Of a stretch of 23,188 nucleotides of DNA, positions 3,175-17,494 are shown piece after piece. Source of the DNA: a virus; IMG/VR virus record IMGVR_UViG_3300010396_000103, positions 1-23,188 of that record; one strand, written 5' to 3'. Within the stretch, counting starts at the first letter, position 1; every line of letters begins with the position of its first letter. Under the pieces are notes generated by a model, which was given only the letters and a program-made list of their open reading frames with translations, was not told where the DNA came from and ran no database searches. Both the position numbers and the translations under genes were made by a program.

Positions 3175-3602
3175 AATGGACCCTATCCCATATCAACAAA
3201 TTACTGAAGGAGGGCAAGATAGTAGCCGCCGTGATCCCTGATAAGCCCAAAAAGCTGAAGGCGAACAAAGGAAAGGTGTTCGTGAAGCCGTCGAAGGAAA
3301 AGGCGTGGATCGGCTGGTATTTGAAAATCTGGTGCGCGGAACATGGTCTTGAGCTGGAGAACGAATTTAAGTTCGACGAGGACCGGGACTACAGATTTGA
3401 TCATTGCATAAGGGCGATAAAAGTTGCCATCGAGTACGAAGGGCTAATGAGCGCGAAGAGCGGTCACACAACGATTACCGGCTATACGAAGGACACAGAC
3501 AAGTACTTTTTAGCTGAGGCACATGGGTATCGAATCATCCGGCTTACAGCCCTCAATTATAAAACCCTTCCTGAAAAACTTAACCGCTTACATCCAAATT
3601 AA
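3171..3602 (+). CDS. small PD-(D/E)XK-like endonuclease
   Basis: A 143-residue protein. The central part has RYRFDH-like spacing with Asp77 (DYRFDH), then a strand with Glu88 and Glu90 (VAIEYEG), then a His/Gly loop (SGHTT), and a final strand-helix unit HGYRIIRLT. This resembles small endonucleases of the Vsr/DUF559/resolvase-like group, where D...ExE/ExK sits on adjacent strands. It overlaps the helicase stop by ATGA and the next start by TAATG, so it is translated with the replication genes. A Holliday-junction or branched-DNA role would fit the position, but specificity is not readable. The catalytic lysine is not in the textbook place, which lowers certainty. Confidence 0.55.
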   Translation: MKWTLSHINKLLKEGKIVAAVIPDKPKKLKANKGKVFVKPSKEKAWIGWYLKIWCAEHGLELENEFKFDEDRDYRFDHCIRAIKVAIEYEGLMSAKSGHTTITGYTKDTDKYFLAEAHGYRIIRLTALNYKTLPEKLNRLHPN

Positions 3603-4147
3603 TGGCAATTCCAAAAGTATATACATCGCAGTCGATAAGCTCGGAGGTCAACAGACTGATCCGCCTGCACCCCCGGGAAAAGCTAGGGACGGCAATACTG
3701 GCCTACATAGATGAAAATTTCATACCCAAATTGGAATTGAAAATAGAGGATAAGACGCTTGATCAATTCGAGGTAATGGCAATTGTCGAGAGCTATTTCG
3801 GAGTCGCAAAAGATCAGATGCTTATTCGTTGCCGACGCCGCGCCATTCTTTACCCGCGCCAGATGGCCCAGTTTTTCCTTTACCGGCACAGTCCGCTTCA
3901 TGCGACGGGCGTTGGCAATGAATTCAACATGGACCATACTTCGGTGCTGAGTTCAATCAACAGGATCGTTGGTCTTTGTCAGTCGGATTCGAAGGTTCAG
4001 GAAGATTTTGAGAAGATCACAAAATTATTGCTTGATAAAAAAAGAGAGCTATACGGGAAAGTTATGGAAGAAGATACTTCGCCTGTTCAAGAGGCCGTCA
4101 GCATTGGAGAAAGAAACGGCCAGGATCGACGCGCTGATCAAGCTTGA
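3602..4147 (+). CDS. stand-alone DnaA domain IV-like DNA-binding protein
   Basis: A 181-residue protein. Residues about 56-145 match the carboxy-terminal DNA-binding domain of DnaA: a helix ending FGVAKDQML, then RCRRRAILYPRQMAQFFLY, then the recognition signature MDHTSVLSSINRI (110-122). In DnaA the DHTTV segment and the preceding basic residues read the DnaA box. The AAA+ ATPase domain of DnaA is absent, so this is a binding module only. It follows the helicase and a nuclease with TAATG overlap. It may bind the phage origin or mask host DnaA boxes. The last 15 residues (IGERNGQDRRADQA) look unlike the rest and overlap another reading frame, see 4104-4229. Confidence 0.75.
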   Translation: MAIPKVYTSQSISSEVNRLIRLHPREKLGTAILAYIDENFIPKLELKIEDKTLDQFEVMAIVESYFGVAKDQMLIRCRRRAILYPRQMAQFFLYRHSPLHATGVGNEFNMDHTSVLSSINRIVGLCQSDSKVQEDFEKITKLLLDKKRELYGKVMEEDTSPVQEAVSIGERNGQDRRADQA

Positions 4148-4229
4148 TCCGGACGCCACGATAAAAGATTACGTCAAGCTCGGCAACTCTTCTCCCATGG
4201 GGATAGCGAGTGCAGAAAGACAGTTGTAA
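4104..4229 (+). CDS. possible small overlapping gene or +1-frame extension of the DnaA-like gene
   Basis: In the +1 frame relative to the DnaA-like gene a TTG at 4104 opens 41 codons ending at TAA 4229. The peptide ends with KLDPDATIKDYVKLGNSSPM and looks like real protein: a regular helix then an HTH-like turn. By contrast the annotated tail of the upstream gene looks non-native. It could be a separately initiated, coupled mini-protein, the product of a programmed +1 shift, or the trace of a single-base assembly error in the upstream gene. The sequence alone cannot separate these. Confidence 0.35.
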   Translation: MEKETARIDALIKLDPDATIKDYVKLGNSSPMGIASAERQL

Positions 4230-4248
4230 ACAGAACAAAAACAAATTA

Positions 4249-5781
4249 ATGCCTAAAAAGAATTCATATCTGACTTTTAAAGACTTATTCTGCGGCGCCG
4301 GCGGCAGCTCCCAGGGTGTTCGGAATTTATCCCGAAAGCAAGGCGGCGGCATCGAGGTCAAGGTGGCCCTGAATCACTGGCCTCTGGCTATTGAAACGCA
4401 CAATACCAATTTTCCAGAGACGATGCATGACTGCACGGATATATCGGCCAGCGATCCGCGGCGTTACCCGTCAACGGACGTTTTGATTGCCAGCCCGGAA
4501 TGCACGAACCATTCGCCGGCGTCGGGCCGGAAGCGCGCCAAAACGCAGATAGAGCTCTTCAAACAAGGAAAACTGGATCCTGCCGCCGAAAGATCGCGGG
4601 CGACCATGTGGGACGTGGTCCGCTTTTCAGAATTTCACAAGTACAACGCAATCATTGTTGAGAATGTGGTGGAGGCCCGCAGCTGGGTGCCATTCGAATC
4701 CTGGCTACATGCCATGCGGTCGCTCGGCTATGAACACAAATGCGTTTACCTAAACAGTATGCATTGTCACCCCACGCCACAAAGCCGGGATAGGATGTAC
4801 ATTGTTTTTTGGCGGAAAGGGAACAGGGCGCCGAACCTGGACTTTACCCCCGCGGCCTACTGCCAGAACTGCGGGAAAGACGTTCATTCTGTCCAGACCT
4901 GGAAAAACCCCAACGTCAAGGCCGGCAAATATAAGACGCAATATCTGTATTGCTGCCCATCCTGCGGCCGGGTGGTAGAGCCCTATTATTATGCCGCCTT
5001 CAATTGCATCGATTGGTCCGACCTGGGCACCCGGATAGGGGATAGACGAAAGAAGCTGGTGCCGAAAACCATGACCAGGATTGAGGCTGGCATAGAAAAA
5101 TACGGGTCTTCCCCATTTCAAGTGGTTAATTATTCTCCTGGCTATACAAAGTCCATGTCGGATAGTCTTGGCGCCATCACCTCGCAGGATCACCACGGGC
5201 TGTTCGTTCCTTTCATCGTCAAGTTGGAGCACGACTATAAAGCCGCTCCGGCTAGTCAACCGCTGCGCCCACAGACCGTGAGACACACGGACATGCTTGT
5301 CACGGCCAATGTCAAATCCGCTGGGGAAGCCCTCCCGACCCAAACAACCTGCCAGGGCATGGGCGTAGTAACGCCGCCCTTCCTTACTGTTATGCGCGGT
5401 CAGAGCACGACAATATCCTCCATGGACCCGTTGAATTGCATATCCGCCGGTGGAATTCATTCCGGCTTAGTAACCACCGACTCCTGGAATAGCTTCTTGG
5501 CGAGCAACTACAATGGTAGTCTATGCCTGAAACACATCAGCCAGGAAATGGGATCGCTTACGGCTGTAGATCGGCACGGCCTCGCTAGTTTCAAAACGCC
5601 AGACATCGAAGATTGTTTCTACCGGATGCTGAAAGCCCCGGAGGTGAAACGAGGAATGGCCTTCGCGGACGATTACGTCGTCCTGGGTAACAGCCGCGAC
5701 CAAGTCAAGCAATGTGGAAACGCCGTAACGCCGCCGGCTATGGAGATGCTGGCCGAAAGAGTAGTGGATTCATTTGCGTAA
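4249..5781 (+). CDS. DNA (cytosine-5) methyltransferase with inserted zinc ribbon
   Basis: A 510-residue enzyme transferring methyl from S-adenosylmethionine to cytosine C5. Visible motifs: I, FKDLFCGAGG (10-19); IV, ASPECTNHS with candidate nucleophile Cys85; VI, ENV (138-140); VIII, QSRDR (178-182); X, CGNAVTPP (489-496). Motif IV reads SPEC rather than the common GPPCQ, as I recall for a branch of phage methylases. A four-cysteine zinc ribbon (Cys205, 208, 236, 239) is inserted before the target-recognition region, which holds several short G/P-T-T repeats (ALPTQTT, SLTAV). The ATG at 4249 follows an A-rich leader and puts motif I near the amino terminus; a GTG at 4210 in frame is less likely. 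No restriction partner is next to it, so self-protection against host restriction is the likely role. Confidence 0.85.
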   Translation: MPKKNSYLTFKDLFCGAGGSSQGVRNLSRKQGGGIEVKVALNHWPLAIETHNTNFPETMHDCTDISASDPRRYPSTDVLIASPECTNHSPASGRKRAKTQIELFKQGKLDPAAERSRATMWDVVRFSEFHKYNAIIVENVVEARSWVPFESWLHAMRSLGYEHKCVYLNSMHCHPTPQSRDRMYIVFWRKGNRAPNLDFTPAAYCQNCGKDVHSVQTWKNPNVKAGKYKTQYLYCCPSCGRVVEPYYYAAFNCIDWSDLGTRIGDRRKKLVPKTMTRIEAGIEKYGSSPFQVVNYSPGYTKSMSDSLGAITSQDHHGLFVPFIVKLEHDYKAAPASQPLRPQTVRHTDMLVTANVKSAGEALPTQTTCQGMGVVTPPFLTVMRGQSTTISSMDPLNCISAGGIHSGLVTTDSWNSFLASNYNGSLCLKHISQEMGSLTAVDRHGLASFKTPDIEDCFYRMLKAPEVKRGMAFADDYVVLGNSRDQVKQCGNAVTPPAMEMLAERVVDSFA

Positions 5782-7173: not shown

Positions 7174-7233
7174 CGAAAATTGACCAGTTTTACGTGGAAC
7201 ATCCTACCCGCTAAAGTGAAAATATCCTCAAAA

Positions 7234-7578
7234 ATGAAAGCAATATTTGGAGCTAATTTAAAAAAGGCGCGAGAATTCAAGGGATGGACCCAAGAGAAGG
7301 CAGCCTCAATTGTTGGCGTGAGCCGACCCGCATTCGGAGCATATGAAGAGGGGCGAGCATTCCCCGGGGTCGATACCTTCATTCGGCTGGCCGAGATATT
7401 CCATGTCAAGGACCTGGTTGGGTTCGTGCGGAACGAAAAATTCGATCCCCGCTGCCAGGCGCAGAGAACTGAAATCCCCGCCGAAATGAGTAACCTTGTC
7501 GACAACTACCGCGCTGCAGATATCCGGGAAAAATTGGCTGTAAACATCTTGCTGGGTCTGGTAGACCTGGAGGGATAA
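7234..7578 (+). CDS. Xre/Cro-type helix-turn-helix regulator
   Basis: A 114-residue protein. Residues about 5-60 are an HTH_3 fold: FGANLKKAREFKGWTQEKAA, then VGVSRPAFGAYEEGRAFPG with the recognition helix near 28-38, then TFIRLAEIFHV. The carboxy half (about 70-114) is helical and could mediate dimerisation. The ATG at 7234 sits at the usual distance before the first helix; the longer frame from an upstream TTG adds residues unlike the family. It may be a phage repressor or Cro-like protein, but no divergent partner gene is present here. Confidence 0.75.
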   Translation: MKAIFGANLKKAREFKGWTQEKAASIVGVSRPAFGAYEEGRAFPGVDTFIRLAEIFHVKDLVGFVRNEKFDPRCQAQRTEIPAEMSNLVDNYRAADIREKLAVNILLGLVDLEG

Positions 7579-11006: not shown

Positions 11007-11336
11007 ATGCATGAACCCGAATTGTGCCAATTCTGCGGGCGTCCCGCATACAAGACCGACGGATTAAGCCGCACGATCTGCCAACGTTATGCCGAAACCG
11101 GCAACTGCAAGGGGTTCACGCCTCGTACGGTAGAAAGGCGCCCTGGCCGTAATCATCAATGCCCGTGCGGCTCCGGAAAGAAGTATAAACGTTGCTGCGG
11201 GGCCGCGGCTCCAGCGTCAGTCATCGATATGACTCCAGCTGGAGGCCCCGACCTCTGTAAACCTGTCGAGGATCTACGTAATGCTATCAACAAAGAGATA
11301 GTCGCAGACATCATCCGTCAAGCCGCGAATAGGTAA
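11007..11336 (+). CDS. SEC-C motif zinc-binding protein
   Basis: A 109-residue protein with two cysteine-rich parts. The first has Cys7, Cys10, Cys25 and Cys34 (CQFCGRP, TICQRY, GNCKGF). The second is a textbook SEC-C motif, [14 protein letters not shown] (52-65), a zinc knuckle known from SecA carboxy termini and many small proteins, where it contacts proteins or nucleic acid. The tail is helical. It lies just before the terminase promoter. A role in packaging or expression is possible, but is inferred only from position. Confidence 0.7.
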
Positions 11337-11348
11337 ATATACCCATCC

Positions 11349-11377
11349 TTTGCCTACTAAAGTCTTTAGTACCTTTG
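11349..11377 (+). promoter_or_regulatory. Bacteroidota-type promoter in front of the terminase genes
   Basis: tttg at 11349-11352 and tacctttg at 11370-11377 are separated by 17 nt, fitting the Bacteroidota sigma factor consensus TTTG-N17-23-TAnnTTTG. The ATG of the small terminase is only 5 nt downstream, so transcription would begin at or near the start codon and give a leaderless or nearly leaderless message. Confidence 0.45.
11355..11371. promoter_or_regulatory. perfect 17-bp palindrome in the promoter spacer (candidate operator)
   Basis: tactaaag-t-ctttagta has two perfect 8-nt arms around one central base. It fills nearly all the spacer between the -33 and -7 elements and overlaps the first two bases of the -7 element. 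A protein bound here would directly control packaging transcription. Its half-site ctttagta recurs at 13220-13227 before the Com-like gene. Confidence 0.5.
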
Positions 11378-11381
11378 GGAT

Positions 11382-11876
11382 ATGCCCGTAGGCCGTCCAA
11401 AAAATATAGAATCCCCGGAACAACTCTGGATGCTTTTCCGGCAGTACGAGAAGTGGGCGAAAGAAAATCCTTACCTCAAACAGGACTTTGTCGGCAAGGA
11501 CGGTGATGAGATCACTCGTAAATTCGAACGGTCGCTTTCGTTTGTTCAATTCGAAGCCTTCTTATTAAAGCGTTTGATTATAAATGATTTAGGAGATTAC
11601 GCTAAGAATAAGGATGATCGTTACGCGGATTTTGCCCCCATCATACGCGCGATCAAAACAATTATCGAGGCGGATCAGTTCGACGGAGCCGTCGCCGGCA
11701 TTTACAAGGAGAACATCATCGCCCGCAAGCTCGGTTTGGCCGACAAGCAGGAGGCACGCCAAGTCGACAAGAACGGCAACGACGTTCCCGTCGGCCCTAC
11801 GGTCAGTGTCATTATGCCCGAAGGAATGAACATCGAATTTCCATCCAACCTGACAGATGACGGCACCGGCGGCTAA
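11382..11876 (+). CDS. terminase small subunit
   Basis: A 164-residue DNA-recognition subunit of the packaging motor. The start GRPKNIESPEQLWMLFRQYE and the internal LSFVQFEAFL...DYAKNKDDRYADF and GAVAGIYKENIIARKLGL match the pattern I know from Bacteroidota phage small terminases and gp3-like packaging proteins. Its end overlaps the large subunit by 20 nt in another frame, the usual small-then-large order. It would bind the cos or pac site, which may be in the adjoining intergenic DNA. The conserved amino terminus supports the ATG at 11382 despite the very short leader. Confidence 0.8.
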   Translation: MPVGRPKNIESPEQLWMLFRQYEKWAKENPYLKQDFVGKDGDEITRKFERSLSFVQFEAFLLKRLIINDLGDYAKNKDDRYADFAPIIRAIKTIIEADQFDGAVAGIYKENIIARKLGLADKQEARQVDKNGNDVPVGPTVSVIMPEGMNIEFPSNLTDDGTGG

Positions 11877-13140
11877 TCTCTTCCCGGAAACCGACCGGAT
11901 GCCCTTGTACTGGGCCAACTTTTTGGCGAAAGAAAAGATCGTCATAAACCCTGGGGGGACGTACTCGGGTAAAACACAGTCGTTGATACGCGTATGCCTG
12001 ACGTGGGCGTCGATAAAGTATTTTCCCAACGGGATCACTATCTGTTCGGGCACCCTCACCAAGCTCAAAGAAGACGGGATCGCAATTTTCGAAGGGTTGT
12101 TTTCTAAAAACGCCGCGCTTAAATCTCTCATTAAAGGGTACAACCGAAGCGAATTCAAGATCACGTTCAATACCGGCACAACGGTAAAGTTCACGTCTTA
12201 CGAAAACATCCTGCAAGCCGAAGGCGCGAAGTGCGATATCCTCTACATTTGCGAGGCGCCGCGCCTGTCGTGGGGGATTGCTTACCGGCTCATCTTTCGT
12301 ACCAATTTCAAGGTCTACATCGATTACAACCCATATCAAAACTTCTGGGTGGACGATAAGATCATAGAGTGTCCCGTAAACCCTAGAACCGGAAAGAAGG
12401 AGTTTTCCAGCGTGAAGATCCTGCGGAGCTGGCATATCCACAATCAATTCATTAGCCAGGAGAAGCGGGATGAGCTGGAGAATATAACCGACGAGGAAAT
12501 ATGGAAGGTGTATGCCCGTGGGCTAAAAGGGAAGCTGATGGGGCGTATTTACACCTTCAAAAAGGTTGATAAAATACCGCCTAACCTGCCTTTCGCGTTT
12601 GGCCTCGACTTTGGATATAACGTAGACCCCTGCGCCATCGTGAAGATTTATTACGACAAGCGCGACCGGTATTGGGAACCGCTGCTCTACCTCTCCGAAA
12701 ATGCCATACTTGACTTGCTGCAGAAAGATAATTTACGCATCTCAGTGCCGCAATATCTCGCCCGCATACTGAAGAACAACGGCTGTACGACATCAACATG
12801 GGTATGGGGCGATCACGATAAGAGCATGCAACTCTCGCTGCGCCGGGAAAGAATCCCCTTTCGGATGGCTAAGAAGGGACCAGGTAGCGTCATCGCCGGT
12901 ATCAGCAAGGTGAAGGCGTATAACAATTTCTATGTTGGTCATCCAGACCTGGAGCGGGAATTGGAGGCGTATACGTGGGACAAAGGCGTTGACCTAATGA
13001 CCGGCAACGAGGTTTATTTAGCAACGCCCTCGAAAGGCGCGCCGGATCATATCCTCGACGCAGGCCGATATGCAATCAAAGGATTGTCCATGCGCGAGAC
13101 GCCGGGCGCGCCCCCGGATCAGGATGGCGAAGAAGAGTAG
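11857..13140 (+). CDS. terminase large subunit (ATPase and nuclease)
   Basis: A 427-residue packaging motor. Walker A is GGTYSGKT (33-40). The Walker B/catalytic region is CDILYICEA with Glu133. The nuclease domain has FGLDFGYNVDP (Asp251), WGDHD (Asp319) and PDHILDAGRYA (Asp397 and Asp401), the RNase H-like acidic set. Length and motif order fit the family, and all key residues are present. Translation is likely coupled to the overlapping small subunit. It acts at the portal vertex and cuts the concatemer. Confidence 0.92.
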   Translation: MTAPAANLFPETDRMPLYWANFLAKEKIVINPGGTYSGKTQSLIRVCLTWASIKYFPNGITICSGTLTKLKEDGIAIFEGLFSKNAALKSLIKGYNRSEFKITFNTGTTVKFTSYENILQAEGAKCDILYICEAPRLSWGIAYRLIFRTNFKVYIDYNPYQNFWVDDKIIECPVNPRTGKKEFSSVKILRSWHIHNQFISQEKRDELENITDEEIWKVYARGLKGKLMGRIYTFKKVDKIPPNLPFAFGLDFGYNVDPCAIVKIYYDKRDRYWEPLLYLSENAILDLLQKDNLRISVPQYLARILKNNGCTTSTWVWGDHDKSMQLSLRRERIPFRMAKKGPGSVIAGISKVKAYNNFYVGHPDLERELEAYTWDKGVDLMTGNEVYLATPSKGAPDHILDAGRYAIKGLSMRETPGAPPDQDGEEE

Positions 13141-13207: not shown

Positions 13208-13248
13208 CCCTCCCAAATTCTTTAGTATAATGTATTTTTAATTCCAGG

Positions 13249-13520: not shown

Positions 13521-13558
13521 GCGCCAGTAGCATCGAAAGATGCTGCCGGCGCTTTTTT
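13521..13558 (+). terminator. intrinsic terminator or attenuator before the portal gene
   Basis: A stem with arms 13521-13534 and 13539-13552 pairs at 13 of 14 positions (one A-C mismatch, one T-G wobble), has a GAAA tetraloop, and is followed by six T. These are the features of a strong intrinsic terminator. It ends 11 nt before the portal ATG (13570), so readthrough or antitermination would be needed for transcription arriving from the terminase to reach the head genes. Confidence 0.75.
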
Positions 13559-13569
13559 CATTTACGCCC

Positions 13570-15033
13570 ATGAATAAAGTCGCCATTGCAGGACGGGAAT
13601 TGATAAAGGGTAATATCGGCAACGCTATTATGGCGATCGCGTCCAAGTCGGTCGCCTCTGAGCTTATCCAGCCATCCCGCTGGCGCAATGGCAATTTCTT
13701 CTTTGGGGTCAATGGCGCGGATAAAGCCTTCATCTGGGGAAACTTCAATAGCTCGTTGATCGCTTATCAATTCTGCCCGATCGTGTCGGCGGTGATCAAC
13801 AAGAAGGCGCAGGCCCTGGTCAACGGGAAAACCGTGGTCAAGACCGACGACGATAAGCGCGTCGCCAATACTGTGTATGCCAAGGCTATCCTGAAGCTCA
13901 TGAAGCGGCCCAACGCCTTGCAAACCGGTAAACAGTTCAAGGCCCAAGGGAATATCTACAAACAGATCTACGGCTATTGTCCTGTGCTGATCATCAAGCC
14001 GGTTGGCTTTGAGGGAGACCCGAGCGTCTGGAAGTTGTGGAATATCCCACCGTGGATGCTCCAGATCCGCGATAAGACCGACCTGTTCTATACCACCGGC
14101 GCACCGTTCCAATCTATCTGGCTCACCTATATGGGACATTCTGTTCAGTTAAACCCGGACAGCATCTTCTTTTTACGCGAGAACCAGATCAGCACCGGTA
14201 CCTACATGATGAACAACAGCACGGAAAACAACGTGTCGTTGTTCCTGCCCGACAGCAAGCTCTTCGCCCTGGAAAAGCCGATCGACAATTTCATAGCATC
14301 CCTCGATAGCCGAGGTTCACTGATCCGCAATCGTGGTCCTCAGTGGTTGCTCACCAACGACAGCAACGATACGCCCGAAGCCGGGATTTTCCCGAATGAC
14401 CCCGAAATGCTGTCCAACCTTCACAAGGACTTCCTACAATATGGCATCCGCAGCGGCCAGCGCAAAGCCATCATCACCGATGCGAAGCTGAAACTGCAGA
14501 CCGTCGGTTTTGACGTGGCTCAACTGAAATTACTCGAAGGCGAGCTTCAGGACGCCAAACAAATCTGCGACGGGCTCAATTATCCGCCGTATCTCCTTGG
14601 CCTGGTAGACGCCAAATTCGACAACCAGGATATCGCGGAACGCTCGCTGTACACCAATTCCATTATTCCTGACAGCGATAGCGACGATGAACAATGGTCA
14701 TACATCTTCGGGCTCGATGATCTGGGATTGAAGGTTACCACGGATTTCAGCCATCTACCCGCATTACAAGAAGATATCACGGAGCAAGGCCGCGGCCGCT
14801 GGTATATGGACCAAGCCCTGCTGATCGAGTTCACACACGACTTACTCACATGGAACGAATGGCGGCAACAACTCGGTATGGACACGGTCCCGGGCCGCGA
14901 TCTGTATTACAGCCAAATGGTCGCCCAAGGACTTATTGCTCCGCCGCCGGCCGCATCGGCAGGACCGAATGTATCGAGCGATACCGCTGCATCAAATTCT
15001 AATAACCAAAACAACAACAACAATGGAAACTAA
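13570..15033 (+). CDS. portal protein, HK97 type
   Basis: A 487-residue protein forming the DNA entry ring of the head. It follows the terminase and precedes the prohead protease, the standard order. Sequence features fit HK97-like portals: FCPIVSAVINKKAQALVNGK near the start, the membrane/stem-type region SLDSRGSLIRNRGPQWLLTN, and the late helix LLEGELQDAKQICDGLNYPP followed by YLLG and NQDIAERSLY. The carboxy end is an Asn/Ser-rich tail. The ATG at 13570 is preferred; an in-frame ATG at 13540 lies inside the terminator stem and adds non-conserved residues. Confidence 0.85.
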   Translation: MNKVAIAGRELIKGNIGNAIMAIASKSVASELIQPSRWRNGNFFFGVNGADKAFIWGNFNSSLIAYQFCPIVSAVINKKAQALVNGKTVVKTDDDKRVANTVYAKAILKLMKRPNALQTGKQFKAQGNIYKQIYGYCPVLIIKPVGFEGDPSVWKLWNIPPWMLQIRDKTDLFYTTGAPFQSIWLTYMGHSVQLNPDSIFFLRENQISTGTYMMNNSTENNVSLFLPDSKLFALEKPIDNFIASLDSRGSLIRNRGPQWLLTNDSNDTPEAGIFPNDPEMLSNLHKDFLQYGIRSGQRKAIITDAKLKLQTVGFDVAQLKLLEGELQDAKQICDGLNYPPYLLGLVDAKFDNQDIAERSLYTNSIIPDSDSDDEQWSYIFGLDDLGLKVTTDFSHLPALQEDITEQGRGRWYMDQALLIEFTHDLLTWNEWRQQLGMDTVPGRDLYYSQMVAQGLIAPPPAASAGPNVSSDTAASNSNNQNNNNNGN

Positions 15034-16159: not shown

Positions 16160-17494
16160 ATGATCACGAAGGAAGAATTAGATGCTCTCGTAGCACAGCT
16201 CGGGCCGCAGATGGCGGCAAAGGTAAAAGCCGAGCTTGATGCCTACGAAGCCAAGGTCAAGCAGTTTGCGATCGATGCGGTCAAAAACGGTAATTACATC
16301 ACCAAGGAATCTTTTGAGGAGTACTCGAATGCCGCCAGGACCGCTGTTGAGGCTGTGAAGGCGATCTGCGAAAAGCAGGGTACGACCCTCGCCGAAGTGG
16401 CGCTCAAACTCAGCTCCGACCAGATCGGCACCAAATCGCCGGCCGAAGTGCTTCGCGCGGACAACGAGGAACTGCGCAAGATCTATTCGCAGGGCAATGG
16501 CAAAAAGGAGTACATGCTCAATGTCAACGCCAAGGGTGAATGGGTCATGAAACCGATCGACACGACCAAGACCACCGGGTACGAAGCCTCCGTTGCTGGT
16601 GTGCCCGCCGGCGCGGTTGCATCTATCACCCAAGCGCTGGATGCTGCTACACTGCTCCGCGTCGGAGCCGGTTCGATGATCAACAGCCAGTACCGCAACT
16701 CGGCCTGGATATTCGATCTGTGTAATACGATCAATGCGTCCTACATCTCCGCACAGCCTTTCGCTATGTGGTTTGACGAGCAGCCGAAAGTCGGTTCATC
16801 GGCTCAGGTCGCTGAAGGTGCAGCAAAACCCGGTACGCAGTACCTCTATCAGCTGAACAGCGCGACCTACAAAAAGGAAGCGACGCTGATCGGCATCACC
16901 GAAGAGTTTCATATCGACTTCGCCCAACTGGAGAGCGATCTGCTCAACAAAGGACGCATCGATGTGATCAACCGCGTCAACCAGGCCATTCTACCTAATA
17001 TCATCGCGGCTGCCACGCTGTATAACCAGGGTGTTGCCTTCAAGGGTGCGACCGGCGTTGCCAACGTGAACGACTTCGATGCTATCGCCGCACTCGCCGC
17101 TCAGGTCGATAATGCTACGTTCGGCGGAGCAAAGACCAACACGGCCATCATGGGGACCAACAAGAAGTACCGCATGGGCATTCAGAAGAACACGCTCGGC
17201 TCTTACCTGAACCCGCCGGAAGTACTGGCAGGAGTATCGTTCGTGGGCAACCCTTCGATCGACGCCTCTTCTCTGGGTGCTGACGGTTTGATTGCCGGCG
17301 ACCTCAAGCAGTACAACATCATCCTGCGCGGCGGGTTGATCGTACGGGTTGGTTACAACGGTAACGACTTCGGCAACAACTCATTCTCAACGGTTATGGA
17401 GCAGTTCTACTACGATTACATCTCTTCCGTTCGGAAGGTTGCGATCGTAAGCGGACCCGATTTCGCCACCGTCAAGGCCGCGATCTCCGCATAA
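16160..17494 (+). CDS. major capsid protein, HK97 fold
   Basis: A 444-residue protein. The first ~110 residues are a charged helical region resembling the HK97 delta (scaffold) domain that the protease removes. Then comes the shell domain: YEASVAGVPAGAVASI, WFDEQPKVGSSAQVAEGAAK, a long spine region (EATLIGITEEFHIDFAQLE), the A-domain segment GTNKKYRMGIQKN and GLIVRVGYNGNDF near the end. Codon use looks richer and more regular than in the accessory region, as expected for a highly expressed gene. The A-rich leader tttaaaaca precedes the ATG. Position directly after the protease confirms the call. Confidence 0.88.
   Translation: MITKEELDALVAQLGPQMAAKVKAELDAYEAKVKQFAIDAVKNGNYITKESFEEYSNAARTAVEAVKAICEKQGTTLAEVALKLSSDQIGTKSPAEVLRADNEELRKIYSQGNGKKEYMLNVNAKGEWVMKPIDTTKTTGYEASVAGVPAGAVASITQALDAATLLRVGAGSMINSQYRNSAWIFDLCNTINASYISAQPFAMWFDEQPKVGSSAQVAEGAAKPGTQYLYQLNSATYKKEATLIGITEEFHIDFAQLESDLLNKGRIDVINRVNQAILPNIIAAATLYNQGVAFKGATGVANVNDFDAIAALAAQVDNATFGGAKTNTAIMGTNKKYRMGIQKNTLGSYLNPPEVLAGVSFVGNPSIDASSLGADGLIAGDLKQYNIILRGGLIVRVGYNGNDFGNNSFSTVMEQFYYDYISSVRKVAIVSGPDFATVKAAISA

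Follow-up and report, generated by a model that had tools for sequence, protein, structure and literature searches.

The terminase genes of this virus appear to be placed under the SOS control of its host. We consider it probable, at roughly 70%, that the palindrome in their sigma-ABfr promoter is the operator of the host's non-canonical, S24-type LexA, which would repress the packaging genes until DNA damage occurs; because the palindrome matches the SOS operator of Bacteroidota, the damage alarm of the host probably holds back, and then releases, the late genes of the phage. In the window (the entire stretch of 23,188 nucleotides that was analyzed), a TTTG-N17-TAnnTTTG promoter with a perfect 17-bp palindrome ahead of the small-terminase ATG was confirmed at 11349-11377 (Table 1). 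Exactly 17 nucleotides separate TTTG (11349-11352) from TAccTTTG (11370-11377), which is followed by GGAT and the ATG at 11382, and the palindrome, TACTAAA-gtc-TTTAGTA, has perfect 8-bp arms around a 1-nt centre. The original prediction placed the palindrome within the spacer; it is present there and also reaches into the -7 element, and the gap from this element to the ATG is 4 bases. The palindrome overlaps the promoter instead of just filling the spacer, since the TA at its 3' end doubles as the opening TA of the -7 element. The -33 TTTG adds little, because genome-wide data from flavobacteria show such an element weakly or not at all and, in F. johnsoniae, no -33 motif is evident genome-wide (PMC6847099).

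Table 1. Features of the window that bear on control of the packaging genes.
Feature	Position	Strand	Remarks
-33-like element TTTG	11349..11352	+	Weak evidence
Palindrome TACTAAAgtcTTTAGTA	11355..11371	.	Holds LexA-type box CTAA-N5-TTAG at 11357-11369
-7 promoter element TAccTTTG (TACCTTTG)	11370..11377	+	Overlaps palindrome; fits TAHHTTTG (PMC6847099)
TerS (small terminase subunit)	11382..11876	+	phrog_606, E 2.9e-19; PF16677 GP3_package
TerL (large terminase subunit)	11857..13140	+	phrog_2, E 1.1e-16; overlaps TerS
Second LexA-like box CCAA-N5-TTAG	13213..13225	.	One mismatch; ahead of zinc-ribbon/portal segment
Portal protein	13540..15033	+	PF04860, E 6.9e-15; phrog_2662; 3' of second box
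XRE protein without peptidase domain	7234..7578	+	Akin to non-canonical LexA DNA-binding domain; candidate co-regulator
GerE/LuxR-type HTH protein, 71 aa	6958..7173	+	PF00196, E 4.7e-16; not favoured as binder

Taken alone, neither the palindrome nor the promoter element is rare in the window. Inverted repeats with arms of at least 8 bp number five (2.5 expected), and TTTG-N15..23-TAnnTTTG is matched twice (0.65 expected). The exact dyads CTAA and TTAG with their 5-nt spacer (CTAAAGTCTTTAG at 11357-11369) occur as a single copy in the whole 23 kb, against an expectation of 0.33, and the chance of finding such a box directly before TerS is approximately 7e-4 for one given start. It is because of the position and the conservation of the box, not its size, that we regard it as more than a chance occurrence.

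The evidence on conservation comes from relatives at several distances. A search with TerL returned one close relative, L002 (82-84% identity), in which TerS is 39% identical to that of the window, with many gaps, and the upstream gene is different. This phage carries TACTAAA-tag-TTTAGTA 10 nt ahead of its TerS ATG, the same distance as in the window. Over the 29 nt that precede the ATG, the window and L002 agree at 14 of 14 arm positions and at 5 of the 15 remaining ones, a pattern that would be expected of the footprint of a protein-binding site together with the TTT of the -7 element; the -7 element of L002, TAgcTTTA, deviates from the consensus. A fortuitous inverted repeat lying over an ordinary promoter, which the frequency of similar-size repeats in the window might suggest, is largely refuted by the retention of these arms amid flanks and a spacer that are near random, and by the reappearance of the box before terS in a prophage that has nine such boxes, all intergenic (see below); we regard this explanation as very improbable. 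Conservation of the palindrome, which had been proposed as a check, thus holds for the terS promoters of L002 and of that prophage, in the Chitinophagaceae genome G092, but not for the more distant relatives L336, G340 and G285, in which no box was found at terS. Searches with TerS against viral contigs, with blastn against phages and with TerL against genome contigs yielded no relative. In another phage, L007, CTAA-N5-TTAG is absent from the terS promoter, and this phage was not counted. A different perfect palindrome, TATTAATTTAATA, overlaps TAACTTTG of that promoter (L007 1909-1930), and the phage has an S24 protein of its own; this palindrome may possibly be the operator of the phage's own repressor in the same place.

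The identity of the operator is suggested by published work on bacterial chromosomes. According to Sanchez-Osuna et al. 2021 (PMC8565304), CTAA-N5-TTAG is the EMSA-tested operator of the non-canonical LexA of Bacteroidetes, a CI-like S24 repressor whose binding is abolished by a change in either dyad or in the spacer and which governs large regulons in Chitinophagaceae, Sphingobacteriaceae and Hymenobacteraceae. By its letters, the window palindrome is an exact instance of this operator, identical in dyads and spacer. When approximately 85,000 species genomes were scanned with the palindrome followed by NNTTTG (TACTAAANNNTTTAGTANNTTTG), 103 places were found, mostly in Chitinophagaceae, Sphingobacteriaceae and other Bacteroidota, the first two being host families that the published operator shares; 70 of the 105 distinct genome sites were intergenic. 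Among 50 downstream proteins, Pfam identified radical-SAM proteins (9), 2'-5' RNA ligases (6), Peptidase_S24 (4), IMS DNA polymerases (2) and SRAP (1), and three downstream proteins were XRE-S24 proteins of approximately 252 aa, so that the genes 3' of the palindromic promoter look like an SOS regulon. The box stands beside lexA itself in all six host genomes tested.

A 55-kb prophage in G092 extends this picture from host genes to phage operons. Its TerS shares 47% identity with the L002 protein, and its capsid protein is 54% identical to the window protein at 16160-17494, which, judged by position, is likely the major capsid protein. Nine CTAA-N5-TTAG boxes lie in this prophage, every one of them intergenic; 0.29 were expected in its intergenic DNA, with a maximum of 3 over 500 shuffles, and each of eleven palindromes built from the permuted half-site occurred once or not at all. 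The boxes, which include three tandem pairs with members 21-23 bp apart, are located upstream of terS, the portal segment and two operons farther downstream, among others; the motif is enriched at the late promoters of related prophages. Two exact boxes occupy the place equivalent to the degenerate box of the window before the portal segment (13213-13225), and L002 has a matching one-mismatch box before its own zinc-ribbon/portal segment, at 7220. No S24 gene was found within the G092 prophage, and its host has, at 479.5 kb, a gene for non-canonical LexA whose promoter contains CTAAAAAAATTAG. At L369 1367-1406 (G092:C1:2171366-2171405), 3 nt lie between the end of tandem boxes and the ATG of a gene in the tail region; therefore, the operator there would overlap or follow the transcript start.

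Other phages carry the box as well. In viral contigs, the palindrome was intergenic at 28 of 76 distinct sites, compared with 12 of the 100 control matches listed for a same-composition palindrome (p 1e-4; fractions, not totals, were compared), and matches of the 17-mer inside coding sequence, such as those in the L011/L028/L036 group, were not taken as promoter sites. Clusters of boxes were found in G006 (nine in 36 kb), G004 (four in 7 kb) and G009 (three in 9 kb), in each of which the reversed motif was found zero times. Among the genes that boxes precede in these other phages are those for portal, head-protease, major-tail and antirepressor proteins. This distribution bears on a further explanation, namely that the palindrome serves in packaging, as a pac/cos site, or binds terminase and is not a transcriptional operator: the palindrome does stand beside terS in three phages, but the same motif also precedes portal, tail, protease, antirepressor and host SOS genes, and we consider a packaging role highly improbable. 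None of the 17 records with a palindrome match, many of which are fragments, contained an S24 match, the sole such match being in the record of L007, which is not one of these 17; likewise, no S24 repressor was found in the G000 or G001 records, both fragments, and neither an S24 repressor nor an integrase was found in the window record, an absence that is not decisive because this record is a linear fragment. On contig L049 (3247-4396), LexA-type boxes precede two genes: one box stands ahead of a gene for a probable antirepressor (Ant), and two in tandem stand ahead of the next gene, of 450 aa. L034 (7031-7483), an integrase-bearing provirus, has a GerE/LuxR-type HTH gene 76 nt 3' of the 17-bp palindrome, which suggests that other phage regulators may also be under LexA-type boxes.

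The original prediction looked to LuxR, Xre or Com-like proteins of the phage as the factors bound at this site. Such regulators are not needed if the palindrome is the host's non-canonical LexA box, and host LexA is the binder that we favour from the motif. NarL binds heptamers, and a comparison with NarL underlies the view that the small GerE/LuxR-type protein of the window binds the palindrome as a 7-3-7 inverted repeat. TACTAAA loosely resembles the NarL heptamer, and the L034 arrangement described above puts the palindrome near a GerE gene; against this, the palindrome is identical to the one that marks host SOS genes and lexA and fits the EMSA-tested LexA motif, which leaves a GerE-based mechanism hardly credible. 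The GerE reading was rejected because the genome scan pointed to SOS genes.

The XRE protein of the window deserves more weight. It might be the main regulator, as a repressor or a late activator, with host LexA being irrelevant or a competitor. Its HTH is of the LexA type (36% identical over 58 aa to the G092 LexA), and of 9 host genomes, 8 have LexA as the protein that matches it best, with LexA ranking second in the ninth; moreover, an XRE gene ends just 5' of the palindrome in L002 and lies just upstream of a probable terS in G018. However, most other XRE-bearing phages are without the box, nothing closer than a distant XRE is present in the box-rich phages or the G092 prophage, the recognition helix differs (SRPAFG in XRE; NRSRLG/KRSLLG in LexA), and the promoter of the XRE gene itself has no box. 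We therefore consider XRE unlikely to be the main regulator. The idea that the box tracks the phage XRE was rejected, as phages with boxes lack an XRE of the window type, most phages that do encode it have no box, and the two distributions do not go together. A combined arrangement is tentatively conceivable, in which host LexA holds the late promoters shut and the peptidase-less XRE, whose gene directly precedes terS in relatives, works on these operators or next to them; XRE would then time late expression or sustain repression after LexA cleavage, and the system would be a Bacteroidota counterpart of the GIL01 switch, independently evolved on an unrelated LexA.

In the temperate Bacillus thuringiensis phage GIL01, host LexA represses the late promoter P3 through boxes inside the promoter, and gp6, a homologue of the LexA DNA-binding domain, activates P3 (PMC6182141). 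The two phages are alike in having a LexA box inside a late promoter, and the absence of a dedicated phage repressor from GIL01 is paralleled by the lack of S24 proteins noted above for G000 and G001 (fragments) and the G092 prophage. The XRE of the window is, like gp6, similar to the LexA DNA-binding domain, its action at the promoter being putative here. In contrast, GIL01 is a tectivirus of a Firmicute host with a canonical LexA, whereas the window derives from a tailed phage with a candidate site for a CI-like, non-canonical LexA at its terminase operon. LexA also controls phage genes in coliphage 186 (tum), N15 (antC) and CTXphi (rstA), and there it mostly governs a repressor or antirepressor gene; in our phage, by comparison, the candidate LexA site is directly on packaging and structural genes. 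That host LexA couples phage development to DNA damage is a general point made in PMC8565304. This paper, which nowhere uses the word "terminase", describes the Bacteroidetes operator for chromosomal SOS genes and lexA-like repressors, whereas the site considered here lies at phage packaging genes. That LexA can control phage promoters is already known; what would be new here is the combination of non-canonical LexA, Bacteroidota and packaging genes. A literature search, with most subscription journals outside its range, did not find non-canonical Bacteroidota LexA acting directly on packaging or structural operons.

On the LexA reading, a LexA dimer bound to the box would mask the spacer together with the first part of the -7 element, so that terS-terL transcription would be blocked in a healthy host. 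DNA damage would lead to RecA-stimulated self-cleavage of LexA, which would free the promoter to produce a nearly leaderless terS-terL mRNA, and the degenerate second box before the portal segment probably acts likewise, more weakly. We infer binding, repression and damage induction at the window site from the motif and its context. Regulated transcription of the packaging genes, as originally proposed, is well supported, the operator being both conserved and of known identity.

The possibly leaderless expression proposed at the outset is supported by the promoter geometry. In F. johnsoniae, the distance from TAHHTTTG to the start site is 4-5 nt (PMC6847099); therefore, the terS transcript is predicted to start at 11382-11383, on the ATG, and the terS-terL transcript to be nearly leaderless, the start position itself being a prediction. 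The spacing from the -7 element to the ATG recurs in L002, L086 and many host SOS promoters, and of 63 genome promoters, 19 have their ATG 9-11 nt after the palindrome. The window resembles the known sigma-ABfr promoters (TTTG / TAnnTTTG; PMC6847099, PMC7366714) in its TAccTTTG and in the 4 nt to the expected start. It differs in a predicted leader of near zero, as short leaders are uncommon at such promoters: approximately 3.7% are shorter than 10 nt in B. thetaiotaomicron, and 13% are 10 nt or shorter in F. johnsoniae (PMC6847099, PMC7366714).

Several further features of the window were observed. A terminator-like hairpin, GCGCCaGtaGCATCgaaaGATGCtgcCGGCGC, followed by T6 lies just 5' of the portal gene (13521-13558) and is kept in L002 with paired changes (ATCATC/GATGAT); because the listed portal ATG falls within this hairpin, the portal start is probably downstream of 13540. 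A small SEC-C motif protein (11007-11336) is encoded immediately 5' of the terminase promoter, where L002 has its XRE gene. Elsewhere, the window encodes a phage protein with a DnaA C-terminal DNA-binding domain (3602-4147; PF08299, E 2e-12) and a homologue of C5 cytosine DNA methyltransferases (4210-5781; TIGR00675, E 9.5e-24).

The SOS repressor of Bacteroidota was identified only in 2021 and is a proposed descendant of a phage repressor. Our analysis puts forward a specific mechanism for the control of prophage induction in this phylum: the phages appear to dispense with a cleavable phage-encoded repressor and to place packaging and structural genes on the damage circuit of the host, with boxes at several late operons of such phages. 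The 13-bp motif would predict which prophages respond to DNA-damaging agents, and leaderless late mRNAs, which are rare in this phylum, could be tested for at the terminase promoter.
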